64,000 nt of DNA from Emticicia agri (GTDB lineage Bacteria; Bacteroidota; Bacteroidia; Cytophagales; Spirosomataceae), in NCBI RefSeq assembly GCF_004168285.1, contig NZ_SEWF01000028.1:1-64000 (forward strand), given 5' to 3'. A program made the position numbers and the translations under genes. Of this stretch, positions 37,391 to 53,047 are shown one piece after another. The number at the start of each line of letters is the position of its first letter. Within the stretch, counting starts at the first letter, position 1. A model generated the notes under the pieces. That model was not told the DNA's origin. It did no database searches and worked only from the letters and a program-made list of their open reading frames with translations.

Positions 37391-38038
37391 ATGCCCATCA
37401 GAATCCTCATTGTAGACGACCACCAGATTCTATTGGATAGCCTGTCTTTATTGATTTCATCTATCCCGAATATGGATGTAGTAGGTACCTTGTACGACAG
37501 CCGGAAAGTACCGGATTTCCTGGAAAATCATGAAATAGATATACTGGTAAGTGATATGAATATGCCCTATCTGACAGGCATTGACCTTACCCTGAAATTG
37601 CGAAATCAATATCCGAATCTGAAAATTCTGATGCTGACTGTAAACGATGAGGCCGAGAATATCCGTCATGCGTTTCAGGCAGGTATATCAGGCTATGTTA
37701 CCAAAAAAGCCAATCGTGCTGAGTTAGAACGGGCACTTACGACTATCAGCAAAGGCGAAAAATATTTTAGTGAAGCCGTATTGAAAGAATTGCTGACACC
37801 TGTCTCGTTTAATGCAGGTCCGATAGAAGAAATTCAGCCGGAACCTAAAGCTTTGACTTTACGGGAATTAGAGATTGTAAAACTGATTGCGCAGGAATTG
37901 TCTTCGTCTCAGATTGCTGACCGATTGTTTATCAGTGTGGGTACAGTAGAAAATCACCGCCACAATATTCTGCAGAAACTGGCTGTAAAGAATACCATCG
38001 GTATTATTAAATATGCTATTAAGTACCGTTTGATTTAA
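37391..38038 (+). CDS. NarL/FixJ-family response regulator
   Basis: 215 residues. Receiver domain 1-120 with DDHQ at 9-12, phospho-acceptor D55 (ILVSDMNMP) and K105 (GYVTKKA). LuxR-type helix-turn-helix about 152-212 (LTLRELEIVKLIAQELSSSQIADRLFISVGTVENHRHNILQKL). The partner kinase is convergent, with 11 bases between the two stop codons. Targets unknown; the repeat-rich region at 40031-40286 near the kinase promoter is a candidate. Confidence 0.9.
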   Translation: MPIRILIVDDHQILLDSLSLLISSIPNMDVVGTLYDSRKVPDFLENHEIDILVSDMNMPYLTGIDLTLKLRNQYPNLKILMLTVNDEAENIRHAFQAGISGYVTKKANRAELERALTTISKGEKYFSEAVLKELLTPVSFNAGPIEEIQPEPKALTLRELEIVKLIAQELSSSQIADRLFISVGTVENHRHNILQKLAVKNTIGIIKYAIKYRLI

Positions 38039-38049
38039 GAACCTTTTTC

Positions 38050-39921
38050 TTACAGTGTTACATCTACCTGTACATTGGTGCCGTGGGTACTTTGTCGGGT
38101 TATCTGTACCCTGCCGTTCAGGTTATCTACTCTTGAGCGTACATTCCGCAAGCCAACGCCATTTATATGCTGGTCTAAATCTATCCCTTTGCCGTTGTCT
38201 GATACCGTCAGCGAAATTCTATCGTCTTGCTGTGTAAGGCTTACCCAGGCCTGTGTGGCTTGTGCGTGTTTCAGAATATTGTTAATCAACTCTAAAGCAA
38301 TGTTGTAAAGTTCGTGTTCTAACTGGGGTTCAAGCCTTTGCGTAACGCCTTCGGTCAGAAAATGAAAATGAATGTGTCGGTTGCTGATATTGTTCAGTAA
38401 TTTTTGCAGAGCTACCGGTAAACCTTGTGTTTCGAGTTCGGCAGGTAGCAGGTTGTGTGCAATCAGGCGTACATCCATGTAAATATCGTCTAATACCTGT
38501 ACAAAGTCTGACAAGACTTTCTGGTCGTATGCGCTGTATTTAGAAGTATCTAACGCTTCAAAACGCCATTTCAAGGCTACTATTTTGGTGTTCAGGTTGT
38601 CGTGCAGTTCAGAAGCTACCCGTTTGCGCTCAAGTGTTTGCCCCTTAAACATGGCTCCTGAAATTTCGTCGTTTTTGGCTTTTAGTTCTTCATTTTTGGT
38701 TTTCAACTGTCTGTTGTTTGAGAAAACATAAGCTACCAGCCCCAACCCAATCAACAGGCTGACAAGCAAGGTGTTTCTAATCCATTCATCACGTTCGTTG
38801 GCACGTTTCAGATTCTCGTTTTCAAGGGTTTTTATCTGGTTTTTCTGCTTTTCGTCTTCATATTTTACCTGCCATTCCCCAAAATTCTGATTCAGTTTTT
38901 TGGCTTCTGCTTCCTCTTCATACTCCTTTACTTTTTCCAGATAAATAAACGCTTTGGCGGGTTGGTTAAGTGCTTTGTAGGTCTGATAGAGCGTTTTGTT
39001 CAGGGCATTGTTATAATAAGGGAAATTCAGGAAATTGGCATTCTTCTCGCCAAGTAAAGAGAGTTGCAGGGCATTCTGATAGTCTTTCTTTTCTAAATAA
39101 TAGCGTCCGGCAAAGGCACCTATCTGGCTCAATACATATTTCGCTTCGTTAAGGTTTTTGTTTTGCTGGCATACGGCAATTATCTCGTCGAGCATAGCCC
39201 GGCCTTGTTTTTCTTTGCCCATATTCAGCAGGCTCAGGCTTTGCCCCAATTTGCTGATATAGTAATAATCAAACCATTGCCTGCGGTTTTTCTTTTCTAT
39301 CAGTTGTATCACTTCTCCGGCATTGCGGTAACATTCCTCGTAGTCTTTTAAAACAAAAATGTAGTAGCCTGCCAGTGTAATCTGAATATTGGCCCATACT
39401 GCTGTATCTTTCTTTACCTGTGGCAAGGCCAGCGCATCTTTAATGTATTGCAGATACCGTTGCTGGGCATCTCTCGGAATTTCGTTTTCAATGATATTCC
39501 AACTGATAAGCGGAATAAATTTGTTGTTGACTTTAAGGTAATTCCTGTAGTCTTTCTGTTCCTTAAACATGAGCATGGCCCGCTCTAACTCATAAAAAGC
39601 TGAATACAATTCGTTGGCGAACAGGTGCATAGTGCCACTCATATAAGCATAATGTGCCTGCGCTTTATTCCATTGGGTAGTTGCTAATAGCTGTTGAAAA
39701 TGGCGTTTTGCCTCATTATATAGTGCTGTATCTCCTGCAGGTATTTCATAAACCATATCGCCAAGCGTCCTAATCATCAATGAGTCTCTTGCAATAGAAA
39801 CCTTTTCTTTTTTCAGCGTTTCAAAAACGGTTCTGAGCGAATCAAGGGTTTTATCAGGCGTTTGTGCTGATAAAACCTGAGATGTGAAGCAGAATAGTAA
39901 AAAGAGAAAAACGCTCTTCAT
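38050..39921 (-). CDS. TPR-containing sensor histidine kinase (HisKA_3)
   Basis: 623 residues. Signal peptide 1-19 (MKSVFLFLLFCFTSQVLSA), periplasmic TPR-like helical repeats about 25-340, a coiled-coil, one TM helix about 383-400 (LLVSLLIGLGLVAYVFS), a second coiled-coil, then HisKA_3 with LERKRVASELHDNLNTKIVALKW and a C-terminal HATPase (VSDNGKGIDLDQHINGVGLRNVRSRV). It pairs with the convergent NarL-type regulator. The divergent neighbour is the coiled-coil membrane protein that opens the Ser/Thr signalling block. Confidence 0.88.
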   Translation of the reverse strand: MKSVFLFLLFCFTSQVLSAQTPDKTLDSLRTVFETLKKEKVSIARDSLMIRTLGDMVYEIPAGDTALYNEAKRHFQQLLATTQWNKAQAHYAYMSGTMHLFANELYSAFYELERAMLMFKEQKDYRNYLKVNNKFIPLISWNIIENEIPRDAQQRYLQYIKDALALPQVKKDTAVWANIQITLAGYYIFVLKDYEECYRNAGEVIQLIEKKNRRQWFDYYYISKLGQSLSLLNMGKEKQGRAMLDEIIAVCQQNKNLNEAKYVLSQIGAFAGRYYLEKKDYQNALQLSLLGEKNANFLNFPYYNNALNKTLYQTYKALNQPAKAFIYLEKVKEYEEEAEAKKLNQNFGEWQVKYEDEKQKNQIKTLENENLKRANERDEWIRNTLLVSLLIGLGLVAYVFSNNRQLKTKNEELKAKNDEISGAMFKGQTLERKRVASELHDNLNTKIVALKWRFEALDTSKYSAYDQKVLSDFVQVLDDIYMDVRLIAHNLLPAELETQGLPVALQKLLNNISNRHIHFHFLTEGVTQRLEPQLEHELYNIALELINNILKHAQATQAWVSLTQQDDRISLTVSDNGKGIDLDQHINGVGLRNVRSRVDNLNGRVQITRQSTHGTNVQVDVTL

Positions 39922-40030
39922 AAGGCAAAGGGTTTAATTCTACAGGATTTAGCAAAAAGAGTTTTTATGTTAGGTAATTCTCTCAAAAGATACAATCAGA
40001 GAGCCATTATTTCCAAGCGTTTGGCACAAA

Positions 40031-40286
40031 ATGTAGGGAAACCTATATTACTTCTATAGTGAAATACAGGGTTTCCTGTAGGTGAAATGTAGAGGTTTAT
40101 AGATTTACTGGTATTGCCCTAAGACAGAACTTTGTAGTAAGTCATAGTATGCAAACGGCTCATTCCTTGTACAATGTCTCCAAATAATTATTTATTTCAA
40201 TTATCCTTCTGAGCTATAGGTTTCCCTACATAAAAAAAATGTAGGGAAACCTACCCCCAAAATGTAGGCGTTTGCAGATTTACAGG
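40031..40286. repeat. Array of ATGTAGGGAAACCTA and related repeats
   Basis: The 15-mer occurs at 40031-40045, 40239-40253 and inverted at 40217-40231; the last two form a perfect hairpin with a 7-base loop. A related direct repeat, AAATGTAGnnGTTTnnAGATTTAC, occurs at 40085-40108 and 40260-40283. A further palindrome TACAGG/CCTGTA is at 40065-40080. It lies between the divergent kinase and membrane-protein genes, where it could act as operator sites. Confidence 0.7.
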
Positions 40287-40301
40287 CGTTGGTATTCGCT
40301 C

Positions 40302-40309
40302 TAATTTTG
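40302..40309 (+). promoter_or_regulatory. -7 box (TAATTTTG) before the Ser/Thr signalling block
   Basis: A perfect TAnnTTTG 46 bases before the start codon at 40356. No TTG lies at the usual distance, so activation by a bound regulator at the adjacent repeats is possible. Confidence 0.45.
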
Positions 40310-40355
40310 TATCGTTCAAAAAGCATAGCGATTAAACTAATACCCAATCAAATTT

Positions 40356-41654
40356 ATGAAACGCCAGCACACCCCCCCAACTGAAGCTACCGATGATGAT
40401 GGATTCTGGACAATACTTTATGATATTATTCAAAAACACCCGATGATTTTTACATTGTTGTTCCTGATACCATTGATTGCCTTGTTGATTTCAATGGCCT
40501 TCAAATGGCATTATGTGTTCAGCGATTCGATGCACTACCTGTCAGACTACTCAGTAGTAAATGGTAAATGGAATGATACAAGCGTTTATTTCAGTCCGGG
40601 TATTGACCGCTATATCAGAGAGCTCGACATCGCAGGTTTGATGGGTGGTATTGTAGGTATTTTCATTGGTTTGTATGTAGCAGTATCTACCGAGAAAATC
40701 AACCGCCAGAAAGAGCGTACCAATCAGCAGGACATGGAGCGCATTAAAACCCAAACAAGCCTGCTGGTACAGGCTACGCAATCATTAAACACGCTGATGA
40801 TTGATGTAAGCGGCAAGGTAAACGAAAAGGTACAGTTGATGGAAGGCACTACCGAACTACTAGACGGTATTTCAAAAGTGATAGAATCTTCCAAAAATCA
40901 GGGTAACAACTTATTAGTTTTGTCGAATACTGCACGTATTGAAGGCATCTCACCTTATAGAATGGAGTACGTAGCGAAACATGCCGGATTGAAACCACAT
41001 GAACTGAAAAACGCTACCCAGTTTGACTATGCCCGTAAAGCAGAAGCCTTGCAACGAGATGCCACCGATATAGAAAATAAACTGAAAGAAGTATCTATCT
41101 ATCTGCAAAACATGGGTAGCGATGCAAAGGTAGATTATGTAACCCTTAATGACCAGAGTGAAGGCGCTACTCATGCGTTTCTGAAATATTTAGGCAAGGT
41201 TTTCAACGAGCATGTAGTGGTGGAAACCTACCGTAGCGGAAGCAATGCCTTATTGAGTAACTTAGACAGTGTACCGCACCATAACCGCTTTCTGGTACCA
41301 AGCAATACGACTGATGTAGATAATCCGCAGGCATATCTGGTACGTCAATTATACGACCAACAGGTACAGGCGATTAAGGAAATGCAGGAATTAGGTATCA
41401 AAGTTACCAAAATTAATAAAACCTTGCCGATTCAGTTGTTTATCTCCGCTCCTTTAGAAAATAAACCGGGTATTTATAAAGGCTTGTGTGTGTGTATTTT
41501 AGGTAGTGGCTCAAGTACCAGCGGCAGAGCCTCAAAACTAACAGCCTTCCTGACTGATGACCCACATATTGTCGCATCTATGACAGAGCTATTCTATGAT
41601 TATGAGAATGATGCACAGATGAATACGAAAGAGTTTATCCGGCCATTGGTGTAG
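40356..41654 (+). CDS. Two-TM membrane protein with coiled-coil and unknown cytoplasmic domain
   Basis: 432 residues, not recognised. TM1 about 30-49 and TM2 about 92-111 enclose a 40-residue extracytoplasmic loop. Residues about 112-180 are a coiled-coil (INRQKERTNQQDMERIKTQT). The C-terminal 250 residues are a soluble domain with FLKYLGKVFNEHVVVETYRSGSNALLSNLDS and KGLCVCILGSGSSTSGRASKL, possibly nucleotide- or ligand-binding. It opens the same-strand run of ABC exporter, FHA-protease, kinases and phosphatase, so it may be a sensor or scaffold in that system. Confidence 0.75.
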   Translation: MKRQHTPPTEATDDDGFWTILYDIIQKHPMIFTLLFLIPLIALLISMAFKWHYVFSDSMHYLSDYSVVNGKWNDTSVYFSPGIDRYIRELDIAGLMGGIVGIFIGLYVAVSTEKINRQKERTNQQDMERIKTQTSLLVQATQSLNTLMIDVSGKVNEKVQLMEGTTELLDGISKVIESSKNQGNNLLVLSNTARIEGISPYRMEYVAKHAGLKPHELKNATQFDYARKAEALQRDATDIENKLKEVSIYLQNMGSDAKVDYVTLNDQSEGATHAFLKYLGKVFNEHVVVETYRSGSNALLSNLDSVPHHNRFLVPSNTTDVDNPQAYLVRQLYDQQVQAIKEMQELGIKVTKINKTLPIQLFISAPLENKPGIYKGLCVCILGSGSSTSGRASKLTAFLTDDPHIVASMTELFYDYENDAQMNTKEFIRPLV

Positions 41655-41677
41655 GGGATATAATGAAAACGACGTTC

Positions 41678-41811
41678 CGTAGAGACGTATTGCAATACGT
41701 CTCCAAGGGTCTATCCAATTCCATAAATAACTTACGAGGAATGTATCGAAAAAATAGATGATTAATCTGATATAGACAGACCCATGAGACGTATTGCAAT
41801 ACGTCTCTACG
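41678..41811. repeat. 134-base MITE-like element with 26-base perfect inverted ends
   Basis: Ends 41678-41703 and 41786-41811 are exact inverted copies, and each contains a 22-base palindrome centred on ATTGCAAT (41682-41703 and 41786-41807). No ORF inside. It ends 15 bases before the start codon of the ABC exporter, so it may alter that gene's leader. Confidence 0.85.
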
Positions 41812-41826
41812 AAAAAAAAATACTCA

Positions 41827-43608
41827 ATGAACACCATCCATATATTAAAAAAATTATTCCCTTTTATCAGAAAATACCGAGGTAGTCTGATACTGGCATT
41901 GGTGCTGACGACCGTTGGTGCATTGCTCTCGCAGGTAACACCACTGGTGATGGAGTACTCGGTAAACACGGTGCAAGGGATGCTTGACAAGCCCGTCGAT
42001 AAACAACGTATATATATAATAGTAGGTACGCTTGTGGCCATCTTATTAGGGAAAGAAATACTGAGTTTATTAGTGGCTTTAGGACAGAAATTTCTGAGCG
42101 ACCGAATCCGTTTCCGTATGGCAGGTGACTTATACGATTATACCATTAACCGCATTACCTCTTATCATCTGAGCTTTTTTGCACTGTCGCAGAACCAGAC
42201 GGGAAAACTCGAAAAAAGAATTGATAAGGGCATTGAGAGCCTGACCAAAACCGTGAAGAATATTTTTGTAGATATTCTGCCGATGCTCGCCAACGCTGCT
42301 TTTGCGCTGATGCTGATTTATAAAAAGAATGTATGGGTAGGTCTGGTTGCTACCATTATTCTGCCTTGCTATATTTATATCAGCCGTGAGCAGACACTCC
42401 GGCAGAAGAGTATCCGCCATAATATTCAGCATGTAAGAGAAGAAAAGGCTAACTCATTGTTCGGATTATTAGAGTCGATTTTTGTGGTGAAATCATTTGT
42501 AAGAGAACGCTACGAAACAGGCCGCCAGCAAGGCATTAACCTGAAACTGACCGAAAACGAAATCAAGCATCATCGCACCAATTATTTGTTTGACGGGCTT
42601 AAAAGCATAGCCGAGCAATTGGGGGTTGTGATGGTATTTACACTGACAATCTTCTTTGTATTGAACAAAGAAATGACCGTTGGAGCCATTCTGTTGCATA
42701 TCATGCTGTTCAACAATGTATCTTCACCCGTGCGCCATCTGCACCGCATCTATGATGAATATACAGAGGCATTGACCTATTCGGAAGGTTTTTTTGATAT
42801 GATAGAAAATGATAAATATCTGTCGAAAAAAGGAGGTATTCGTTCTAACAATCTACAGGGAAATTTCAGTTTTCAGCACGTAGATTTTGTGTATCCTAAT
42901 GGAAAACAAGCCTTGAAAGATGTAAGGTTTGAACTGAAAAATGGCAAAACAACTGCTTTGGTAGGATTGTCGGGTGCAGGTAAAAGTTCAGCCATGAATC
43001 TTCTGGCAGGGTTCTATGACCCAACGCAGGGAAGCATCTTATTAGACGGCAAACCCTTAGCCGATTATGATACCGACTTTGTGCGTGAAAACATTGGCCT
43101 GGTGATGCAGAAAAACCATATATTCTCGGGTACTATCGAAGAGAATATCCGCTATGGTGAATTGAATGCTACCCGCGAGGCCATTGAAGAAGCCGCTAAA
43201 AAAGCCAGTCTGCACGACCAGATTTTAAGAATGCCCAATGGCTACGAAACACAGGCACGTGAACTCTCAGGCGGACAGCAACAGCGCATTGCCATTGCCC
43301 GATTGTTCCTCAAAAATCCGCCTATCATCTTTTTAGATGAGCCTACGGCAAGCCTTGATGCCATTACAACTGAGCAGATTAAAGAAAGTATTGACGCTGT
43401 AAAAAATAACCGTACCGTGTTGATTATCTCTCATAACATCAGCCAGATAATGGATGCCGACCATATCTATGTACTGAGCGAAGGCGAGATAGTAGGGCAC
43501 GGCACCCATGAGTCGCTCTATAAAGAAGGCGGCTTGTATAGCCAGATTATTGACTCTAATGCAAGAACCCTTAACATTGGTCGCCTGGCGGCTACTGTGT
43601 TGGGGTAA
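41827..43608 (+). CDS. Type I ABC exporter (membrane and ATPase domains fused)
   Basis: 593 residues from the ATG at 41827. Six TM helices in about 15-320 (ABC_membrane), then an ATPase domain about 345-580: Walker A GLSGAGKSS, Q-loop LVMQKNHIF, signature LSGGQQQR, Walker B IIFLDEP and H-loop IISHN. It would act as a homodimer in the inner membrane exporting a lipid, peptide or drug. It is followed after a repeat by the FHA-trypsin gene. Its presence in a Ser/Thr kinase cluster suggests the export may be phosphorylation-controlled or the exporter delivers the protease's substrate; this is inference. Confidence 0.9.
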   Translation: MNTIHILKKLFPFIRKYRGSLILALVLTTVGALLSQVTPLVMEYSVNTVQGMLDKPVDKQRIYIIVGTLVAILLGKEILSLLVALGQKFLSDRIRFRMAGDLYDYTINRITSYHLSFFALSQNQTGKLEKRIDKGIESLTKTVKNIFVDILPMLANAAFALMLIYKKNVWVGLVATIILPCYIYISREQTLRQKSIRHNIQHVREEKANSLFGLLESIFVVKSFVRERYETGRQQGINLKLTENEIKHHRTNYLFDGLKSIAEQLGVVMVFTLTIFFVLNKEMTVGAILLHIMLFNNVSSPVRHLHRIYDEYTEALTYSEGFFDMIENDKYLSKKGGIRSNNLQGNFSFQHVDFVYPNGKQALKDVRFELKNGKTTALVGLSGAGKSSAMNLLAGFYDPTQGSILLDGKPLADYDTDFVRENIGLVMQKNHIFSGTIEENIRYGELNATREAIEEAAKKASLHDQILRMPNGYETQARELSGGQQQRIAIARLFLKNPPIIFLDEPTASLDAITTEQIKESIDAVKNNRTVLIISHNISQIMDADHIYVLSEGEIVGHGTHESLYKEGGLYSQIIDSNARTLNIGRLAATVLG

Positions 43609-43612
43609 AATA

Positions 43613-43709
43613 CCTCACCCCGGCCCTCTCCTGAAAAAAGGAGCGGGAGATTTTAAGACCCTTGAACTAAATGCCCTTCTCCTTTTTCAGGAGAAGGGTT
43701 GGGATGAGG
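43613..43709. repeat. 97-base palindromic element between exporter and FHA-protease genes
   Basis: Left arm from 43613 (CCTCACCCCGGCCCTCTCCT) pairs imperfectly with the right arm ending 43709. It starts five bases after the exporter stop codon and fills most of the gap to the next gene. Confidence 0.7.
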
Positions 43710-43763
43710 AAAAACATCAAAAAAATCTATTAAAATAACATTATTTAATATCTAACAAAGACC

Positions 43764-45455
43764 ATGAGCACCACAGTACAAAATTTTGTCATTCGCCATA
43801 TGGCGGGTGCAAAAGCCAACCAGATTGAAGAATTTGATTTTCAGAAACATAACGAGCTGTCATTAGGCAGAGCCAGCACCAGCGATGTGCAGTTTGACCC
43901 TGACCTTGATACTGTAGTAAGCCGTGAGCACGGCAAAATTGTGAAAGATTCAATTGACCCGCTTTCGTTTATGCTGATTGATAATAATAGCCGTAATGGC
44001 ATTATGGTTAACAAAATCAAGGTAAAAGGTTCTACCAGACTATACCCCGGCGATGAAATTCAGTTGGGAAACAACGGCCCGATTTTCGTATTCGACCTTG
44101 ACCCTCGTCCGCAGGAATTTATGCCACAAACCCGCATGGTGGACATCAGCAAACCAACAGCCGAGTTTATTCCGACAGAGGTAGCCAATACTGCTAACAC
44201 AGGTAAAACAGGCATTGGTAAACAAACCTTTGAGCGTGTGATTACTCACGAACGCAAAAAATCGCAACGCATGTTGTGGACAGGATTAGCCGCTGCATTG
44301 GTATTGGTGAGTGCCGTGAGTTTTGTTGTCTGGAAAAACGGAAAAGATAAAAACGATGAAATGGCGGCACAAATGGGTAATGCCAGCAAACAATTAGATT
44401 CGTTAAAAAACTCAGTATCTATCAAACAACAGAAGGGAGAATCTTTATCGCCGGAAGAAATTGTAGCGGCCAATCAGGACAAAGTGGTAAAAATTGAGTT
44501 TGGCTGGCAGTTGTTTGACCCAAGTACTAGCGATGAAATCTGGCACGTGTATATTCCAATGAAAATGCAGGATGGTAGCGAGCGTTACATGGCAGCTTAT
44601 ATACAAAATTCTCAAGGACGCATTGAGCCTTATCTGAATACCAAAAGAAATGTAGCTATGGGTGTACCTATCGGTATGACAGGTGCTTCCGGCTCAGGCT
44701 TTGTAGTATCAGATGCAGGGTTTATCCTCACCAACCGCCATGTGGCCGCCTCATGGAATACAGGCTTCTCTTTTCCTGAATATGCCTTTCCGGGAGTGTT
44801 GTTAGATGCACAAGGCAAAGCTACCAATCAGATGATTTCGGCAGGAGATGTGTATGGTTGGGTGCCCTCTGAAACTTCTATGCTGGGCGGGCGGGCGCTT
44901 AATTCAAGAGTAGAAGGTCGTAATACTTATCTCAAAGTAACCTTTGCCAACAATGTATTGCGTCGTAATGCTACCGTAGAAGCTGTATCAGACAACCATG
45001 ATGCTGCCATGATTAAAGTATCGATGCCGGGCAAACTGGCAAGCGTAGAGCTTCTGGATAATTACGACGATATAAAAGCCGGACAAGCCGTAACTGTAAT
45101 GGGTTATCCGGGTGTAGCACCGGAGCAATACGTAGTGCGTAAATCAAGCGACCCATTCAAACCGAATATGGATTTCAACAGCGTACCGTCGCCTACTGTT
45201 ACACCGGGGAATATCGGTCGCCTGATTAAAACTTCAACTGAGAAAAACAATCTATATAGCACCTTTGGCGACTCCTATCAACTCACTATCAACGCTACAG
45301 GTGGCGGTAACAGCGGCGGCCCGATGTTCGATGATAAAGGGCGTGTGATAGGCATTTACTACGCTGGCAAAAGCGATGCCCGTGGTACACAAATCTCCTT
45401 CGCCGTTCCGATTAAATACGGTATGGAATTGATGGGAAATACGAAGGTGCTTTAG
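43764..45455 (+). CDS. FHA-TM-trypsin protein: phosphothreonine reader fused to a periplasmic serine protease
   Basis: 563 residues. FHA domain about 25-115 with G35-R36, S53-R-E-H56 and N78-G79, the phosphothreonine-binding signature, cytoplasmic. A linker leads to one TM helix at 171-190 (LWTGLAAALVLVSAVSFVVW). The periplasmic part (about 290-555) is an HtrA/trypsin-type protease with catalytic H326 (LTNRHVAA), D413 (NHDAAMIKV) and S517 (GGGNSGGP), all present. No PDZ domain is seen. It sits directly before two Ser/Thr kinases and a PP2C phosphatase. Binding of a phosphorylated partner inside could gate proteolysis outside; this is inference from architecture and context. Confidence 0.88.
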   Translation: MSTTVQNFVIRHMAGAKANQIEEFDFQKHNELSLGRASTSDVQFDPDLDTVVSREHGKIVKDSIDPLSFMLIDNNSRNGIMVNKIKVKGSTRLYPGDEIQLGNNGPIFVFDLDPRPQEFMPQTRMVDISKPTAEFIPTEVANTANTGKTGIGKQTFERVITHERKKSQRMLWTGLAAALVLVSAVSFVVWKNGKDKNDEMAAQMGNASKQLDSLKNSVSIKQQKGESLSPEEIVAANQDKVVKIEFGWQLFDPSTSDEIWHVYIPMKMQDGSERYMAAYIQNSQGRIEPYLNTKRNVAMGVPIGMTGASGSGFVVSDAGFILTNRHVAASWNTGFSFPEYAFPGVLLDAQGKATNQMISAGDVYGWVPSETSMLGGRALNSRVEGRNTYLKVTFANNVLRRNATVEAVSDNHDAAMIKVSMPGKLASVELLDNYDDIKAGQAVTVMGYPGVAPEQYVVRKSSDPFKPNMDFNSVPSPTVTPGNIGRLIKTSTEKNNLYSTFGDSYQLTINATGGGNSGGPMFDDKGRVIGIYYAGKSDARGTQISFAVPIKYGMELMGNTKVL

Positions 45456-45668
45456 AGAATTTAGTGATTTAGTGAATGAGTGATTTAATGATTAAAACGC
45501 TGGTGATTTAGCCGCCGCACGGTAAATGTTTTTAGTTAAGAATTAGCGAAGGAATAATTGTGGAATATAGACTGGGTGTCTCCGTGCATTTGTATGCATA
45601 GTAGCAACTCGATTACAGTGAATTATTTAATCACTAAATCATTCAATAAATCACTCAATTAATTTTTA
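45456..45668. repeat. AGTGAATG/AGTGATTT repeat element between FHA-protease and kinase genes
   Basis: The left arm is built of degenerate units like TTAGTGATTTAGTGAATG; the right arm (about 45620-45668) is its inverse. Relatives occur at 56120-56330, 57036-57157 and 58621-58677 in the efflux operon. Confidence 0.7.
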
Positions 45669-45675
45669 TCTCAAC

Positions 45676-46527
45676 ATGCAGGAACCATTTTTAAATAAGA
45701 ATATCAGAGGATACATACTCACGCAATGGTTGGGTTCGGGTGGGATGGGAGAAGTATATCAGGCACAACATCAACACTCTCGTCAGACTGCTGCTGTAAA
45801 AGTACTGAATCGTATCGACCAGGTAGAGCGTTTCCGTAATGAAGCCTATGTGCAATCGTCGGTGAAGCACCCGAATATTGCCGCACTTTACGAGTATTCG
45901 GTCGAAAATGGCATCCCTTGCATTGTAATGGAGTATGTAGAGGGACTGACACTCGAAAGGCTCATAAAAAGACAGGGAGCATTGCCTGAAACCTTTGTCT
46001 GGAAAGTATTGGAACAAATGGCTGCCGCAGTAGCGCACCTGCATACCAATACCATTTTTCATCGGGATTTAAAACCTGCTAATATCAAAGTAACCAAAGA
46101 GAGTGTGGTAAAGCTGTTGGATTTTGGTATTGCCAAAGCCGCTTATACCCCCAAACTTACACAGGAGGGATATATTGTTGGTACATCGTACTACATGGCT
46201 CCTGAACAGTTTCAGGGCAAAGGGAATGTACAGTCAGACTGTTGGGCATTAGGTGTGATTCTCTACGAAATGCTGACCGGACAACTGCCTTTTGACGGCA
46301 AAACAGACACAGAAACCCGTATCAGAATTGAGCGTGGCGAGTACATGGCACCGAATCTGATTAATCCGCATATTTCAAAAAAGAGCAAGCGGCTGATAGA
46401 GAAATTGTTACAGCATAATCCTAAAAAACGCATGACCGCCGAAGCACTTTTAAGCGAATTGAGAGGTGAAACTGACCCGAATAATTTATTCAATAGGGTT
46501 AGTGACTGGGTGAGGAATGCGTTTTAG
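45676..46527 (+). CDS. Cytoplasmic Ser/Thr protein kinase
   Basis: 283 residues, essentially a single Hanks-type kinase domain. Gly-rich loop LGSGGMGEVY (19-28), catalytic Lys42, Glu56, HRDLKPAN with D131, DFG at 149-151 and APE at 175-177 are all intact. No TM segment or extra sensory domain. It lies between the FHA-protease and the PP2C phosphatase, which makes the FHA partner or the membrane kinase its likely substrates. The C-terminus is short after the kinase fold. Confidence 0.93.
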   Translation: MQEPFLNKNIRGYILTQWLGSGGMGEVYQAQHQHSRQTAAVKVLNRIDQVERFRNEAYVQSSVKHPNIAALYEYSVENGIPCIVMEYVEGLTLERLIKRQGALPETFVWKVLEQMAAAVAHLHTNTIFHRDLKPANIKVTKESVVKLLDFGIAKAAYTPKLTQEGYIVGTSYYMAPEQFQGKGNVQSDCWALGVILYEMLTGQLPFDGKTDTETRIRIERGEYMAPNLINPHISKKSKRLIEKLLQHNPKKRMTAEALLSELRGETDPNNLFNRVSDWVRNAF

Positions 46528-46549
46528 CATGGTAAACCTAATTACTGCG

Positions 46550-46695
46550 ACTGACAGCGAATAGAATTCGCCGCCTAAGATAACAATGGAAATATCATCT
46601 TACATATGCGGACTTAAGCGACCGACGCCCGGTCCGCATCACGCTACTAAAACTATTCCTTTGTTTGCTTAGCCGCCGACTTCAGTCGGTGAGAC
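46550..46695. repeat. Repeat element related to 23771-23973
   Basis: Shares the 33-base core CGAATAGAATTCG...TAAGATAACAA (46558-46590 against 23911-23943, four mismatches) and a CCGACTTnAGTCGG palindrome near 46676-46689. It fills the gap between the kinase and phosphatase genes. Outer boundaries are approximate. Confidence 0.6.
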
Positions 46696-46741
46696 CATAA
46701 GCAAGATACATTTAACATCAATCATTTAACCATCTATAAAG

Positions 46742-47602
46742 ATGTTTTGGAAAAAATGGTTATCGGGAGGCGAGCCTAAGCCTACAGAAGAACACTCCAT
46801 CAGAGAAGAAGACCTGAGGGCGGTGGTGGTAACCGATGTAGGGCGAGTACGCACCAACAATGAAGATGCGGCCCGGTTTGTACGTCCATCAAAAATTCTG
46901 ATAAGAATACAAAAAGGTTTCTTAGCCCTTGTGGCTGATGGCATGGGTGGACACGCCGCCGGAGAGATAGCCTCGCAAATGGCTGTTGAAACCATTGCCA
47001 AAGCCTATTATCAGCAGGAAGATACGCCAGAATCAAGTTTGTTTGTGGCGTTTGCTAAAGCCAACAGAGCTATCTGGCAAACGGCTAATAAAAACGTGAT
47101 GCAAAAAGGAATGGGTACAACATGCACGGCTGTTGCCATTTGCCAGAATAGGCTGTATATGGCACATGTAGGCGACAGTCGGCTGTACCTGTTTAAAGAT
47201 GGCCAACTGATTCAGTTATCAACCGACCATACTTATGTGCAGGAACTCATTCAGCAGGGCGTTATTTCGGCAGAAGAGGCCGAAAAGCACCCCGACCGCA
47301 ATATGTTGACCCGTGCTATGGGTACGCACAACAAAGTAGAAGTAGATGTACAGGCTATTTCGACGCTTTTTGAGAACAACGACCGGATTATGCTTTGTAG
47401 CGATGGACTCTACGACTATTTCAGCCTGGCAGAAATTGCTACTTTTCTAACGATTCCTGCGCTGAATGAAGCCGCACAACAAATGGTAGATGCGGCCAAG
47501 CAGAGAGGCGGACACGACAACATAACTGTGCTGCTGGTAGAGCGTGTAAACCCCGAAGAGTTTCAGCCTGCCAAACCCACCGAAAATATTGACATACCAT
47601 GA
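46742..47602 (+). CDS. PP2C-family Ser/Thr phosphatase
   Basis: 286 residues. Metal-dependent PP2C with the conserved Asp sites VTDVGRVRTNNED (D32, D42), VADGMGGHAAGE, VGDSRLYL, CSDGLYDY and the C-terminal GGHDNITVLLV. It removes phosphate from proteins phosphorylated by the flanking kinases. Its last codon overlaps the start of the second kinase by four bases (ATGA at 47599-47602), so kinase and phosphatase are translationally coupled, as in PrkC/PrpC-type pairs. Confidence 0.93.
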   Translation: MFWKKWLSGGEPKPTEEHSIREEDLRAVVVTDVGRVRTNNEDAARFVRPSKILIRIQKGFLALVADGMGGHAAGEIASQMAVETIAKAYYQQEDTPESSLFVAFAKANRAIWQTANKNVMQKGMGTTCTAVAICQNRLYMAHVGDSRLYLFKDGQLIQLSTDHTYVQELIQQGVISAEEAEKHPDRNMLTRAMGTHNKVEVDVQAISTLFENNDRIMLCSDGLYDYFSLAEIATFLTIPALNEAAQQMVDAAKQRGGHDNITVLLVERVNPEEFQPAKPTENIDIP

Positions 47603-49401
47603 TAGGCCAGAAGATACAAAATTATAACGTAGAAGAACTACTGGGCGAAGGGGGCATGGGAACCGTCTATCGGGCTACTGATACCTTGTTACAACGTTCG
47701 GTGGCAGTTAAAATTCTGCACCCACATCTGGTGCGAGACACGACATTCTTTGAGCGTTTCCGCAATGAGGCCATCCTGTCAGCCAAGCTGAATCACTCCA
47801 ATGTGGCTGTGTTGTATAACTTCCTCAGAGACCGCAACGACAACTTCATGGTAATGGAGTATATCGACGGCATGACCTTAGAGAAGTTGCTCAAGCAAAA
47901 CGGAGGCTTACCCTTGGAGTCGGTGCTTAAAATCATGATGCAGACTTTAGATGGCTTGCATCACGCCCACGAAAAGGGTATTCTGCACCGTGATATAAAG
48001 CCTGCTAATCTTATGCTCACCCGTGACGGTATCGTGAAGCTCATGGACTTTGGGATTGCCCGTATGGTAGGCTCTCAAAGACTTACACGGGCAGATAGAA
48101 TTGTAGGAACACTTGAATACATGGCTCCCGAACTATTAGATGGCAGCGAGCCAGGTGTACAATCAGACCTGTATGCCATTGGTGTTCTGATGTACGAATT
48201 ACTATCTGGCAAAATGCCTTTTGAAGCCTCAACGGACTCAACACTCATTACTCAGATTCTCACTAAGAAGCCAATTCCATTGCGCTCACGCATAGGTAAT
48301 CTGCCCAAAAAGGTAGAGGAAATACTGGATACATTGCTGCAAAAGAAACCCGAAAAACGCTTTGAAAGTGCAGCAGACTTGCGCTATTTACTTAGTACAA
48401 TTGTAACGCCGGGCAAAGTAATACCGCAAACATTGCAACCAAAAAAAGTAGAAGTAAACATTGCCCCTACAGAAATGTATACCAAGGCCAATACCAACCC
48501 GACCCGATTGGCTGAACATCAGCAACAACGAAAAACAGGGTCTAAGCCAACAGTAGTACAAACGGTTAAATCAAGCATGTTATCAACCGAGGGAATGATT
48601 TTAGGTGGGGCAGTGCTGGTGGCGATTATGATTGTCATTGGTGGTGTATTCTTTATGTCGCCTGAAAAGCCGGACAAGCAAGAGCAGAGTTTTACTCCCA
48701 CTACTGAAGTAGTAATTCCGCAGACAGTTGCCAATACAGATTCGCAAAAGGTCAGCAATCAGGATATAGGTTTCCAACAGCCTTTGGATAAGGTAGTTAA
48801 TCCGACTGAAAAAAAAGAAACCAAACCTATAAATATACCTCCGACAGACAATAAAGAAAAAGGAAAGGAGAAAGACAAGGGCAAACAGCCGATAGAGAAA
48901 AAAGAGGAGGAAAAAAAGAAAGAAGAACCTAAGCCATCTCCTACTGAACCTATTGTGAAACAACCTGTAACAGAACCAGTCAAAGAGCCTGAACCTGTGA
49001 GAGAAGAACCCAAAGCCAAACATACGCAGAATGTTTCTATCAGGGGCTTATCGGTAGCAGTGGTATTAGACGAAACCATTTCTTCTAACGACCCGGGTAT
49101 CAGAGGCAAGAGTATTAACCTGCGGGTATTGAACGATATACGGGTAGATGGAATTGTGGTAATTGCCGCAGGTGCCCGAGCTACCGGAAAAGTAACCAGT
49201 GCCCGTTCGAGTGATGCCGGAAAGTCATTCCTGGAGTTCAGACCCGAGCGTGTACAGGCCGTCAATGGTGACTGGGTACCGCTCAGAAGTCCTGATTTAG
49301 GCAAATCAGGGAGTTCTACTGAACCTGTTGTTTTTACAAGAGGGATGCGCATCTTACCCGACCCGAAAACCGCTAATGCTATCTTAACTATTACACTGTA
49401 A
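47599..49401 (+). CDS. Membrane Ser/Thr kinase with extracytoplasmic barrel-like domain
   Basis: 600 residues. Hanks kinase domain about 10-265 with LGEGGMGTVY, Lys38, H130-R-D132-IKPAN, DFG at 150-152 and APE at 176-178. One TM helix at 333-353, then a long Lys/Glu/Pro-rich flexible spacer (about 355-475). The C-terminal domain (about 476-600) contains VRGLSVAVVLDET-like strands, DIRVDGIVVIAAGARATGKV and GMRILPDPKTANAIL, and resembles the extracytoplasmic beta domains of TrbI/TraM-like conjugation or TonB-like spanning proteins. No PASTA repeats. The spacer could cross the periplasm to reach the outer-membrane protein encoded next. Confidence 0.88.
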   Translation: MIGQKIQNYNVEELLGEGGMGTVYRATDTLLQRSVAVKILHPHLVRDTTFFERFRNEAILSAKLNHSNVAVLYNFLRDRNDNFMVMEYIDGMTLEKLLKQNGGLPLESVLKIMMQTLDGLHHAHEKGILHRDIKPANLMLTRDGIVKLMDFGIARMVGSQRLTRADRIVGTLEYMAPELLDGSEPGVQSDLYAIGVLMYELLSGKMPFEASTDSTLITQILTKKPIPLRSRIGNLPKKVEEILDTLLQKKPEKRFESAADLRYLLSTIVTPGKVIPQTLQPKKVEVNIAPTEMYTKANTNPTRLAEHQQQRKTGSKPTVVQTVKSSMLSTEGMILGGAVLVAIMIVIGGVFFMSPEKPDKQEQSFTPTTEVVIPQTVANTDSQKVSNQDIGFQQPLDKVVNPTEKKETKPINIPPTDNKEKGKEKDKGKQPIEKKEEEKKKEEPKPSPTEPIVKQPVTEPVKEPEPVREEPKAKHTQNVSIRGLSVAVVLDETISSNDPGIRGKSINLRVLNDIRVDGIVVIAAGARATGKVTSARSSDAGKSFLEFRPERVQAVNGDWVPLRSPDLGKSGSSTEPVVFTRGMRILPDPKTANAILTITL

Positions 49402-49420
49402 ACTTAAAAACATAATCTTT

Positions 49421-50053
49421 ATGAAAACTATCTTGGTAAAAAAATACATGGCTCTTGCATGGTTATGCTCCACCATAAGTCTTTCTTGCTTTGCACAGGA
49501 TGCACTCACGTTGCGGTCCAATACAGAGGGCTTTCATATTGGGCTGAGTGGTGGCTATAAACACTGGATTTCGTCATACTTCAATCAATTAGATGAACTG
49601 GAACCTACAGGTATCGGGGGAGGGCTCAACTTAGGTTTCGGGCTGAATCAGCATATAGAACTTTTTGCAACGCTCGATTACCATACTTTTGCTTTTCAGA
49701 ACGACTGGGACGCTTATGGTATGACCATTGCTGGTGTAGGAACCCGTTATAATTTTGGAGGTACACTGCAAAAAGTACGACCTTATGCCGAATTAGCCTA
49801 TAATTATCAGTATCTGGTGGTTAGCCCTGTGCAGTTGAATGGACAATTGTTTAAATATGAACTGAGTGGTGGCGCACTTTCGTTGGGCGGTGGGATTAAT
49901 TTCTTTGTATCGCCCAGATTTGCCATAAATCTTAAAGGCGGAGCCAACTTAGGCAAATTTAATAGCTTCCTCTTAAACGAAAGCGGCATAGAAGACCGCC
50001 CCGATGTAAAGACTTTTCAGTTTGGGTTAGGGTTGAATTATTTTTTTAATTGA
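49421..50053 (+). CDS. Outer-membrane beta-barrel protein
   Basis: 210 residues with a signal peptide (1-25, ending CFAQ). The mature protein is rich in alternating aromatic/Gly strands: GFHIGLSGGYKHWISSYF, GGLNLGFGLNQHIELFATLDYH, AGVGTRYNFGG, LSLGGGINFFVSPRFAINLKGGANLG, ending FQFGLGLNYFFN with a terminal aromatic residue. This fits an OmpA-type/porin-like barrel of about eight strands. It begins 20 bases after the membrane kinase, so it may be the outer-membrane partner of that kinase's extracytoplasmic domain. Confidence 0.8.
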   Translation: MKTILVKKYMALAWLCSTISLSCFAQDALTLRSNTEGFHIGLSGGYKHWISSYFNQLDELEPTGIGGGLNLGFGLNQHIELFATLDYHTFAFQNDWDAYGMTIAGVGTRYNFGGTLQKVRPYAELAYNYQYLVVSPVQLNGQLFKYELSGGALSLGGGINFFVSPRFAINLKGGANLGKFNSFLLNESGIEDRPDVKTFQFGLGLNYFFN

Positions 50054-50067
50054 TACTATATATGGCT

Positions 50068-50165
50068 TAACCACGGAGTACCTCGGAGTTTGGCACGGAG
50101 TGTCACAGAGTATTTTTTTGCCTCCGTGTAAGCTTCGTGCTTAACTCCGAGCCACTCCGTGGTTA
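50068..50165. repeat. ACGGAG palindromic element
   Basis: TAACCACGGAGT (50068-50079) and its exact inverse (50154-50165), with inner degenerate ACGGAG units. It separates the end of the Ser/Thr block from the convergent two-component genes and could also stop transcription. Confidence 0.75.
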
Positions 50166-50177
50166 AAAACAAAAACA

Positions 50178-51494
50178 TCAAAACCGTATCTGAAAACCCG
50201 TCAAACCATTCTCATTCGTCTTTAAAGAGTACTGAAATCCATGATTGACTAATACCTCACGGATGAGTGTCAGGCCGATGCCTTGTCCGTTTTCTTTGGT
50301 GGTGAAGAAAGGTGAGAAAAGCTGTTGCTCTACTTCCGGCGAGATACCCATGCCATTGTCTACGATTACCAATTGCTTGGGCTTATAAGAAGTCCGGATA
50401 GTGATTACTCCATCAGAAGCAGCATCACGATTGCGTAGTTGACGTATTTCTATTGATTCAATAGCATTTTTGATGATATTGATAACGACCTGCTCTAACT
50501 GATGCAAATCTGCTGAAATCAGAAAAGGCATTTCGGTGAGTTGTACCACCAAGGTAATTCCCGATTGCGTTGCCCTGAATTCCATCAGCCGGATAGCGTT
50601 TCTCATCAATTCATTCAAATCTACTTTTTCAGGGCGAGGTTCAGGCAGACGAACCATATCGGCAAAATTCCGCATGAAATAATTCAGATGGTCGTTCCGC
50701 TGAATGGCTATTTCAAGGGCATACTTTATATCTGATTCATTTTCCTGTAGCTGAATAGTAGTATCTAAAATAGAATTAACCGAGCCTATGGAATTGTTTA
50801 CCTCATGCGCCATCATCCGTATTACCTTGCCGTAGGCTTTCTTTTCAGCGGTCAGAATCTCGGCCGTCAGTTCTTCTATCATTACAAAAAACCTTGGGAA
50901 ACCTCTGTCGATAAAATGCGATTTCTGACACTTATAGGTCTGGATTCCATTCAACGAAATCGTCCTTGATTCACCCGTTTTCAGGGTACCAATGGCTTGT
51001 AGCAGTACTTTGTCAAAATCAAAAATAGATTGCCCTATCAGGTCTTTTGCTTCCATACCCAATATCTCACAAACCTTCGGATTGATATTGGCAATTTTAT
51101 CATCAAAATCAAGAATCAGAATACCCGTAGGAGAGGTTTGTACTAATTTTTCGAGGAAATAATGTTGCTGTTCCTGTTGTGTCCGTTCATGCCTGAGCTG
51201 GTCAACCATACCGTTGTACACATCAATCAGCGTATCCATTTCAATCTTGCCTATTTTCAGAAATTTCACACTGAAATCCTTGTCCCGCATGGCATCGACG
51301 CCCGTCATTAATAATCGGATTGGTGCAATTAAATCATTGTACAACTGCCACCCTATGAAGATAGAGATTAATACAAAAACCTCTGAAACGATAAATATCT
51401 CTTTATTATCCTGAAAAATATAGAAAGAAAGGCCAATCATTACCGAGTGAATGACCACCATAAAAAGTAAAAACTTAGTCCGAATCTTCATCAT
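50178..51494 (-). CDS. NtrY/NtrB-type sensor histidine kinase
   Basis: 438 residues. The start at 51494 (MMKIRTKFLLFMVVIH) overlaps the regulator gene by about 20 bases, so coupling is likely. Two TM helices (about 7-22 and 30-52) enclose almost no periplasmic loop, followed by a HAMP-like segment, a PAS domain (about 110-215, SPTGILILDFDDKIANINPKV), the His box MMAHEVNNSIGS and an HATPase (IVDNGMGISPEVEQQLFSPFFTTK). It should phosphorylate the adjacent sigma-54 activator. The sensed signal is probably membrane-intrinsic or cytoplasmic. Confidence 0.88.
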   Translation of the reverse strand: MMKIRTKFLLFMVVIHSVMIGLSFYIFQDNKEIFIVSEVFVLISIFIGWQLYNDLIAPIRLLMTGVDAMRDKDFSVKFLKIGKIEMDTLIDVYNGMVDQLRHERTQQEQQHYFLEKLVQTSPTGILILDFDDKIANINPKVCEILGMEAKDLIGQSIFDFDKVLLQAIGTLKTGESRTISLNGIQTYKCQKSHFIDRGFPRFFVMIEELTAEILTAEKKAYGKVIRMMAHEVNNSIGSVNSILDTTIQLQENESDIKYALEIAIQRNDHLNYFMRNFADMVRLPEPRPEKVDLNELMRNAIRLMEFRATQSGITLVVQLTEMPFLISADLHQLEQVVINIIKNAIESIEIRQLRNRDAASDGVITIRTSYKPKQLVIVDNGMGISPEVEQQLFSPFFTTKENGQGIGLTLIREVLVNHGFQYSLKTNENGLTGFQIRF

Positions 51495-52848
51495 GCGGGA
51501 TATTATATTTCTCCAATCTACGATATAAAGCACTGCGTGTCAAGCCTAATGCTTTGGCTACCGTCATTACCTTTCCCTTATGAAACTCTAATGCCCTGCG
51601 TATCATCTGCACTTCCATTTCCTCAAGAGTCATGCTACCTACTTCGGGCAAGGCTACCGAGCTTGGTTTGCGTGCTGTTGGTTGCCATTGTGCCTGAAAA
51701 TCGGCTACTTCTAAAGTATCGTGGTTGCTCACTAAAATAGTGCGTTCCACTAAGTTTTTTAACTGACGGATATTCCCCGGTAGCGGCAATTGTTTCAGCC
51801 ACTTCATGGCTTCTTGTGTAACTCGCAGATTCGGACGGTTATAAATTTCACGCAGATTCTGCACAAAGAAATTCACCAGTAATGGAATATCGTTCGGACG
51901 TTTGCGTAGGGGAGGAAGGTGAATCGTAATCAGGTTAATCCGATACAGCAAATCTTCTCTGAAAGCGTTTTTCTGTACGCTTTCTTCCAGATTTTTGTTG
52001 GTAGCACATACTACCCTTACATCAAGGGTTTTGGTACGGCTGCTACCCAGTACCTCATAGGTGCGGTCTTGCAATACCCGTAATAATTTCACCTGACTGC
52101 TCATATCTAAATCACCGATTTCGTCCAGAAAAATTGTGCCTTTATTGGCCATTTCAAAACGCCCCACACGGTCGTAGCGAGCATCTGTAAAGGCTCCCCG
52201 CACGTGTCCGAACATTTCAGATTCAAACAGACTGGTAGAAACTCCCCCCAGATTCACTTTCACAAAGGGCTTCCGGTTACGCTGACTATTCTGGTGAATG
52301 GCCTCGGCAATCAGTTCTTTACCTGTGCCACTCTCCCCCATAATCAGCACCGAAGCATCAGTAGAGGCAACCCTGCCAATGGTTTCTAATATTTTCAGAA
52401 ACTCGGCATCTTCCCCTATCAACTGACTGAAATTATACTGGGCATCTAATTTCTTGCGTGTCAGGGTCAGGGTTTTCTTTTCTGATAAATCTAATATAGT
52501 TCTGATAGATTGCATCAGATGCGCATTTTGCCAGGGTTTATTGATAAAATCGCTTGCACCTAATTTCATACCTTTTACGGCCAAATCAATAGTAGCCCAA
52601 CCGGTAATCAATATCACCGGAATAGCATTATTGATTTTCTTGATTTTGGCTAATAGACTCAGGCCATCATCACCCGACGTATCATTCGAGAAATTCATGT
52701 CAAGAATAACCAAATCAGGCACTTCCAGTTGCAGAAACGCCAAAGCCTCCTGCTGTGAACCCACAGCAACAAACTCAAACCCTTCTTTTTTCATGAGTAA
52801 TGAAAGAGAGGTTCTAACAGCTATGTCATCGTCGATAATAAGAAGCAT
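51475..52848 (-). CDS. NtrC-family sigma-54 activator
   Basis: 457 residues from the ATG at 52848; the open frame to 52896 is repeat sequence. Receiver domain (1-120) with DDD at 6-8 and D50 (LVILDMNF). AAA+ sigma-54 interaction domain about 145-370: GESGTGKEL Walker A, GAFTDA loop (a variant of GAFTGA), FLDEIGDLD Walker B. Fis-type helix-turn-helix about 410-450 (KGKVMTVAKALGLTRSALYRRLEKY). It lies at the end of the efflux operon and overlaps its kinase, so it probably activates the operon's own sigma-54-like promoter. Confidence 0.9.
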   Translation of the reverse strand: MLLIIDDDIAVRTSLSLLMKKEGFEFVAVGSQQEALAFLQLEVPDLVILDMNFSNDTSGDDGLSLLAKIKKINNAIPVILITGWATIDLAVKGMKLGASDFINKPWQNAHLMQSIRTILDLSEKKTLTLTRKKLDAQYNFSQLIGEDAEFLKILETIGRVASTDASVLIMGESGTGKELIAEAIHQNSQRNRKPFVKVNLGGVSTSLFESEMFGHVRGAFTDARYDRVGRFEMANKGTIFLDEIGDLDMSSQVKLLRVLQDRTYEVLGSSRTKTLDVRVVCATNKNLEESVQKNAFREDLLYRINLITIHLPPLRKRPNDIPLLVNFFVQNLREIYNRPNLRVTQEAMKWLKQLPLPGNIRQLKNLVERTILVSNHDTLEVADFQAQWQPTARKPSSVALPEVGSMTLEEMEVQMIRRALEFHKGKVMTVAKALGLTRSALYRRLEKYNIPHDEDSD

Positions 52849-52854
52849 GGAGCA

Positions 52855-53047
52855 TAGGGCATAGGGCATGGGGCAAGGAGCGGTGGGAAAGAGCATAGGG
52901 CGTGGGCAGGTGGCTAAGGGTATGGTAAAGATGGAAATGGAAATAAAGAGTAAATCTTTATACTCTATAATTTTATTTCCTCCTCGCTCAACGCCCTACG
53001 CAAATCACCCTCTGCCCTTTCCCCTCTGCTCCACGCCCCATGCCCAA
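52855..53047. repeat. GGGCATGGGGC palindromic element, left of the four-helix gene
   Basis: A G-rich left arm of degenerate GGGCATAGGGCATGG units and a C-rich right arm inverse to it, with an inner GGAAATAAA/TTTATTTCC stem. It starts just past the start codon of the NtrC-type gene and runs to the stop of the four-helix-bundle gene. Boundaries approximate. The same family recurs at 53466-53663. Confidence 0.75.

Follow-up and report, generated by a model that had tools for sequence, protein, structure and literature searches.

An FHA-helix-serine protease protein encoded with Ser/Thr kinases and a PP2C phosphatase in Emticicia agri: a candidate trans-membrane phospho-signaling system

Introduction

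Bacterial Ser/Thr kinases are usually taken to act on cytoplasmic targets. In the PrkC/PrpC and PknB/PstP pairs, a transmembrane Hanks kinase is encoded beside a PP2C phosphatase of the Stp1/IreP type by overlapping genes, and in type VI secretion PpkA, PppA and Fha1 represent a kinase, a PP2C and an FHA protein. DegS, HtrA and MarP are periplasmic serine proteases anchored by a helix. Here we describe a gene cluster from a 64,000-nucleotide stretch of the Emticicia agri genome (contig NZ_SEWF01000028.1, positions 1 to 64,000; hereafter the window) that shares parts with each of these systems. Two Ser/Thr kinases (D and F) and a PP2C phosphatase (E) are encoded next to a protein, C, in which an FHA domain is joined through one transmembrane (TM) helix to a trypsin-like serine protease; a membrane protein (A) and an ABC exporter (B) precede C, and an outer-membrane barrel (G) follows F. 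We favor, with moderate confidence, the reading that this is a trans-membrane Ser/Thr phospho-signaling system with C, a membrane-anchored periplasmic serine protease, as its output.

Three further systems are relevant for comparison. OdhI and GarA are FHA proteins with a conserved phosphorylatable motif, and their FHA domain docks on the autophosphorylated kinase PknG (PMC8546545). The KKP cluster (PfkA/PfkB/PfpC) encodes a PP2C along with two kinases, which bear cold-shock and FHA domains (PMC11341870). vWA/MoxR conflict systems include trypsin-like and, occasionally, FHA or transglutaminase-like domains in other arrangements (PMC7159879). C resembles OdhI/GarA in having a conserved Thr motif beside its FHA domain, phosphorylation being known there and predicted here, whereas in C the Thr lies C-terminal to the FHA domain, which is joined via the membrane helix to a protease. 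The likeness to KKP lies in the set of components; here the FHA domain sits on a separate membrane protease, there is no cold-shock domain, and envelope genes lie nearby. An initial annotation of the window, made from the sequence alone, knew of no described system with this exact set; in the open-licence literature that we searched we likewise found none, nor any description of an FHA-helix-protease output under kinase/PP2C control.

Results

We found C (E<=1e-10) in 38 of 222 genomes of the family (13 of 36 genera) and in 9 of 395 genomes sampled across the phylum (7 of 171 genera); both tallies count the genome of the window and one other (G226). Named carriers include Arundinibacter roseus, a Persicitalea, a member of Chitinophagales, and metagenome-assembled genomes of Tannerella and Gemmatimonadaceae, and the nearest named relatives of C are those of Emticicia sp. 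C21 and BO119 (94% and 93% identity). We compared neighborhoods from 47 other genomes; according to the searches that found them, 46 belong to Bacteroidota and one to Gemmatimonadota. Three loci (L025-L027) were included via a named-relative search, and one (L076) was left out, as it matched the trypsin end only. Gene-order counts are limited to genes hit by any of nine queries taken from the window (labeled genes), and unlabeled open reading frames (ORFs) sometimes intervene. Many of the 47 genomes are near relatives and hence do not represent 47 independent events.

Kinase F lies within three labeled genes after C in all 47 loci (cut by a contig end in L080), and phosphatase E within two in 46. 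The remaining locus, L026 from Gemmatimonadaceae, has no separate E and encodes kinase and PP2C domains fused in one 715-aa protein. Barrel G lies within four labeled genes after C in 39 loci, and D is the next labeled gene after C in 29. E and F overlap by ATGA at 47599-47602, as initially annotated, and by exactly four bases in 22 of 46 loci when longest-ORF starts are used. At E<=7.7e-69, E occurs in 39 of the 222 family genomes, namely all 38 with C and a 570-contig draft (G574); the next-best match after these is at 4.5e-40.

The FHA domain of C scores 50.9 bits against a Pfam cut-off of 20.7, and by family and residues it is a predicted phosphothreonine-reading FHA domain. In an alignment of 48 C rows (window included), R36, R54, H56 and N78 are kept in 47, the missing row (L074) being cut by a contig end, and S53 is kept in 45; we take this class of Arg, Ser, His and Asn residues to be the FHA ligand residues. 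The trypsin residues H326, D413 and S517 are each kept in 45 rows (exceptions L067, L068 and L075). A helix exceeds the hydropathy threshold in 44 rows, and the C of the window has one, between the two domains. This supports the topology suggested in the initial annotation, from which we infer that the FHA domain is cytoplasmic and the protease outside the inner membrane. The linker preceding Thr123 is variable, and Thr123 forms a conserved island within it: the position is T in 46 of 48 rows and gapped in the other two, followed by R in 41 rows and by V, I or M at +3 in 45. A second conserved island stands directly before the helix, where T155 is kept in all 45 rows that have a letter. Based on this conservation, we propose Thr123 as a candidate phospho-site read by the FHA domain of C.

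These features bear on the alternative that the FHA domain is only a spatial anchor or recruitment device on a constitutive protease of HtrA-kind envelope quality control. The trypsin domain partially matches HtrA/Do models and structures, C resembles DegS, HtrA and MarP as a trypsin-like protease anchored by a helix but differs in its predicted cytoplasmic FHA domain, and transmission of a change by the helix is a prediction. However, C has no PDZ match in Pfam; it scores far below the cut-offs of the HtrA/DegS models (47.6 versus 416.2 for TIGR02037; 28.9 versus 422.95 for TIGR02038) and of the MarP model NF033740 (32.9 versus 250 bits); and the invariance of Thr123 hints that C itself is regulated at this residue. 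We consider a purely anchoring role quite improbable.

In L067 (8141-9835) and L068 (9452-11146), the position of C is taken by an FHA-membrane protein with a non-trypsin outer domain; the hydrophobic stretch of this protein falls slightly below the helix threshold used. The outer domain has Cys, His and Glu in a context resembling that of transglutaminases; Pfam DUF553 (transglutaminase-like) touches both proteins at E 0.2, no better, so the assignment is a motif-level reading. This exchange is relevant to the opposite direction of signaling, in which the C protease would stand upstream, as sensor or actuator, and cleave the F linker or an envelope protein, the FHA domain would report to the kinases, and the outputs would be cytoplasmic kinase substrates. 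The F linker is long, exposed and rich in Pro, Lys and Glu, and the docking of OdhI/GarA on PknG (PMC8546545) shows that FHA proteins can engage a kinase in this way. Nevertheless, a trypsin domain swapped behind a kept FHA domain is a better fit to an output than to a dedicated F sheddase, and we regard outside-in signaling as unlikely.

D and F are the sole Pkinase matches (E<=1e-10; six candidates scored) in the 6.65-Mb, 174-contig genome, and their location in the cluster is therefore not a matter of chance. The kinase Lys, HRD and DFG residues are kept in 30 of 30 D rows and in 48 or 47 of 48 F rows, one of which is cut by a contig end, and the five PP2C aspartates in 47 or 46 of 47 E rows (window included). 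E scores 259.6 bits, above the 230-bit Stp1/IreP cut-off of NF033484. F and D score 330 and 237.3 bits, below the 450-bit cut-off of the PASTA kinase model NF033483, and neither has a PASTA match in Pfam. The locus shares with PrkC/PrpC and PknB/PstP a transmembrane Hanks kinase overlapping an Stp1/IreP-type PP2C gene, but F is not a PASTA kinase of the PrkC type, has a different outer domain, and is accompanied by a dedicated FHA-protease partner. The gene assignments of the initial annotation fared well. Profile searches returned ABC, FHA, Trypsin_2, Pkinase, PP2C and OMP_b-brl, with A lacking a family, and the catalytic residues of kinases, phosphatase and protease are present and conserved among homologues. 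Co-occurrence in relatives and conservation of FHA and catalytic residues, the two points on which the initial annotation had staked its proposal, were both observed.

A patchy presence and the combination of two kinases with a PP2C and an FHA domain would also suit an anti-phage or conflict system like KKP or PD-T4-6, and PADLOC kinase models do match D and F, though as generic kinase matches. In contrast to the KKP kinases (PMC11341870), D and F have neither FHA nor cold-shock matches in Pfam. At E<=1e-10, 72,556 plasmid records gave no match, and a scan of viral contigs, sensitive to close relatives only, yielded no confirmed one. The outer-membrane barrel and the two-component genes at the locus also argue against defense, which we judge very improbable. 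Type VI secretion control, named in the initial annotation as a known setting of kinase/phosphatase/FHA sets, would involve the same three kinds of protein. However, the sheath gene TssC/VipB (PF05943) is absent from 30 of 30 carrier genomes, with a positive E. coli control and other type VI genes not searched, and the FHA domain here is fused to a protease; we give this explanation next to no weight.

The outer domain of F matches no Pfam family in the window, TraM/TrbI included. A structure model built from six sequences reached, at best, a mean predicted local distance difference test (pLDDT) score of 73. Its best 19 PDB fold matches are all ComB10 or type IV secretion system (T4SS) outer-membrane-complex entries that contain VirB10-type proteins (chain names not given for all), with E 2.8e-3 to 0.14, probability 0.96-1.00 and TMq 0.39-0.57; at rank 20, the probability falls to 0.23. 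By hhalign, the domain aligns with 16 sequences of TraM, the Bacteroidota counterpart of VirB10, at P 0.0016; as controls, 19 slices cut from unrelated local alignments gave no P below 0.033, while a slice of F itself gave 9.5e-41 and protein A 0.14. Based on the model, the outer domain probably has a VirB10-like fold, and homology to VirB10 is possible. VirB10 has one helix, a Pro-rich arm and a C-terminal beta domain, and a role in the outer-membrane complex. F has a similar layout, with a C-terminal beta domain of probably similar fold, but differs from VirB10, TraM and ComB10 in having a kinase at its cytoplasmic end and marginal sequence similarity. The window's genome has no TraM match (other T4SS genes were not searched), so F is not part of any detected conjugation apparatus. 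Gene order and the role of VirB10 lead us to suggest that the outer domain may touch G. A fuller version of the proposed system, a whole-envelope relay in which F, its VirB10-type arm spanning the periplasm, feels G and writes phospho-Thr123, and in which the FHA domain and helix switch an exchangeable trypsin or transglutaminase-like enzyme outside, so that the protease is phospho-gated from inside to outside, seems to us tentative and rather doubtful.

To look beyond the phylum, we searched 200 Gemmatimonadota genomes, of which nine have a full-length C match at E<=4e-138 (source genome included) and 27 more match the N-terminal part only. We fetched 15 neighborhoods of these 36 matches and assigned domains by BLAST and by eye, with no Pfam run. 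C stands together with a kinase and a PP2C in L135-L137. In L126-L130, L140 and L141 the order is kinase-PP2C-(FHA-TM-trypsin), which differs from that in Bacteroidota; L132 has a PP2C followed by C, with the kinase on the opposite strand, and L131 has C without a kinase or PP2C within 14 kb. The TR motif of Thr123 follows the FHA domain in L135-L137, and TR[VA] was seen there by eye in L126, L129 and L132, whereas the remaining six distant Gemmatimonadota C proteins do not show it. The distant proteins (24-32% identity) may not be orthologues. We note that in L133, L134 and L139 short FHA proteins are encoded close to large kinases (843-888 aa).

The initial annotation treated all seven genes as a block of co-occurring families. 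C, E and F do occur together in 47 other genomes, but the seven genes fall into two modules. Of the 222 family genomes, 30 have A: 29 with C, plus G574 by a partial match. Among the 29, A-B lies before C in 13 (window included), after G in 2, and unlinked in 14; all eight loci fetched from these 14 show an A-B-kinase arrangement standing alone. We therefore rejected the seven genes as one conserved unit and divide the block into C-(D)-E-F-G as the core and A-B-kinase as an accessory module. In a D-kinase tree, long membrane forms, short forms beside C and A-B kinases form separate groups, whose branching order the tree does not settle. B keeps its Walker, signature and H-loop residues, and A has no family match over cut-off in Pfam. 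Between genera, A keeps about 70% identity, which makes it better conserved than C, and its C-terminal half has no family match; a structure model of A was discarded (mean pLDDT 39). In one genome (G617, C1:2788225-2789489), the match to A is split into two overlapping parts, which may reflect a broken copy or a sequencing error.

The seven genes are real, but confining the block to them left out a divergent histidine kinase (HK) and a response regulator (RR). The HK is the nearest labeled gene upstream in 34 of 47 loci, with a gap under 500 bp in 27, and the RR is the next labeled gene past it in 20 of 47, from overlapping to about 5 kb away. Although HK-type matches are abundant (8-31 per genome at E<=1e-5), 18 of 25 other genomes have their best match to the window's HK no more than 15 kb from C. 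We read the divergent HK as a regulator linked to the cluster, which would place the cluster under its transcriptional control.

ORF and Pfam scans show that seven open plus-strand ORFs fill 40356-50053 (Table 1; coordinates are those of the whole 64-kb window). The start of B is taken as ATG 41827; the ORF listing opens B at TTG 41794. The A-B, B-C, C-D and D-E gaps are 155-220 bp in the window, so a single transcript is not to be assumed, and are shorter in many relatives; because several relatives have gaps of a few bases, the long gaps may hold small insertions. The A-B gap (41675-41814) is filled by 29-nt arms, 97% complementary, each with GAGACGTATTGCAATACGTCTC, a sequence whose two copies in the window are both in these arms (chance expectation, none). 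Imperfect inverted repeats occupy the C-D gap (45458-45660) and a stretch 3' of G (50067-50166). Beyond G, on the minus strand at 50178-52896, Pfam identifies a PAS histidine kinase and a sigma-54 response regulator, which we take to be an NtrB/NtrC-like pair. G+C is 0.41-0.46 over 40001-50000 and 0.34-0.42 in nearly all other 2-kb steps, with one outlying step of 0.443 at 24-26 kb. Raised G+C, together with the absence of C from eight of ten congeners, makes gain by transfer possible.

Table 1. Coordinates of the cluster genes, their domains and the adjacent two-component genes
Feature	Coordinates	Strand	Basis
RR, NarL/LuxR-type response regulator, convergent with HK	37391..38038	+	ORF; family read from sequence
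HK, histidine kinase (HisKA_3, HATPase_c), divergent from cluster	38050..39921	-	Pfam
A, two TM helices, coiled coil and C-terminal domain without family	40356..41654	+	Hydropathy, Pfam; coiled coil by reading
B, MsbA-like ABC half exporter	41827..43608	+	Pfam ABC_tran/ABC_membrane
C, FHA-TM-trypsin-like serine protease	43764..45455	+	Pfam, residues, hydropathy
C, FHA domain, aa 33-102	43860..44069	+	Pfam FHA, E 2.1e-13
C, Thr123, T-R-x-V-[DE]-like motif just after FHA, proposed phospho-site	44130..44132	+	Conservation
C, transmembrane helix, aa 171-189	44274..44330	+	Hydropathy
C, trypsin-like domain, aa 310-531, H326/D413/S517	44691..45356	+	Pfam Trypsin_2, E 1.3e-18
D, soluble Ser/Thr kinase, 283 aa	45676..46527	+	Pfam Pkinase, E ~1e-59
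E, PP2C phosphatase, Stp1/IreP family	46742..47602	+	Pfam PP2C; NF033484
F, Ser/Thr kinase-TM (aa 334-352)-Pro/Lys/Glu-rich linker-outer beta domain	47599..49401	+	Pfam Pkinase, E ~1e-59; hydropathy
F, outer domain, probably VirB10-like fold	49006..49398	+	Structure model, PDB fold matches, hhalign
G, outer-membrane beta-barrel, 210 aa	49421..50053	+	Pfam OMP_b-brl, E 3.7e-07

Discussion

We propose that F would sense the state of the envelope through its extracytoplasmic arm, perhaps by contact with barrel G. F and D would phosphorylate Thr sites, among them Thr123 of C and TRL-like motifs beside the membrane helix of F. The FHA domain of C could read these marks in cis, between C molecules, or on F, and reading would dock or cluster C and so alter the activity of its trypsin domain across the membrane. 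PP2C E would reset the phosphorylation state. HK and RR probably set expression, and the A-B-kinase accessory module probably puts the exporter under the same control.

This proposal is favored by the retention of C, E and F together, by the close match between the genomes that have E and those that have C, by the kinase-PP2C fusion in L026, by the conserved FHA and catalytic residues and the Thr123 island, and by the exchange of the outer domain behind a kept FHA domain in L067 and L068. T[RQK][LVIMF] motifs between the kinase and helix of F, present in 29 of 46 rows where shuffles predict 11.9, also favor it. The Gemmatimonadota kinase-PP2C-C sets, in another gene order, and the absence of Pkinase matches other than D and F in the genome point the same way.

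Several observations weigh against it. The system is dispensable within the genus, since C and E are both missing from eight of ten congeners. In 8 of 47 loci no G was found (a contig end cuts one of these), and the L075 protein at the C position is an FHA domain alone, without a protease. The FHA domain could also serve solely to localize C. The T[RQK][LVIMF] motifs of F are absent from 17 of 46 rows, and the shuffle test is generous because the rows are related. The best HK match lies elsewhere in 7 of 25 genomes (G001, on the same contig about 20 kb away, G607, G618, G606, G600, G547 and G526). For the outer domain of F, the other four models, from the same six sequences, have pLDDT 54-65; none of the PDB fold matches is at E<=0.001; the hhalign probability against TraM is 16%; a profile search against PDB sequences gave a best E of 0.34, none significant; and Pfam gave no significant match on 27 members of the domain, one touching TraM at E 0.062. 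L026 and L075 lack this F domain, as judged by eye.

The components of the cluster are known, whereas an FHA-helix-protease output with an exchangeable outer domain did not come up in the open-licence literature that we searched. The gene set points to a single protein through which a phospho-mark in the cytoplasm could act directly on a periplasmic enzyme. As both detected Pkinase genes of this organism lie in the cluster, loss of two genes should abolish Hanks-type signaling, and the cluster would offer an unusually clean model for studying it.

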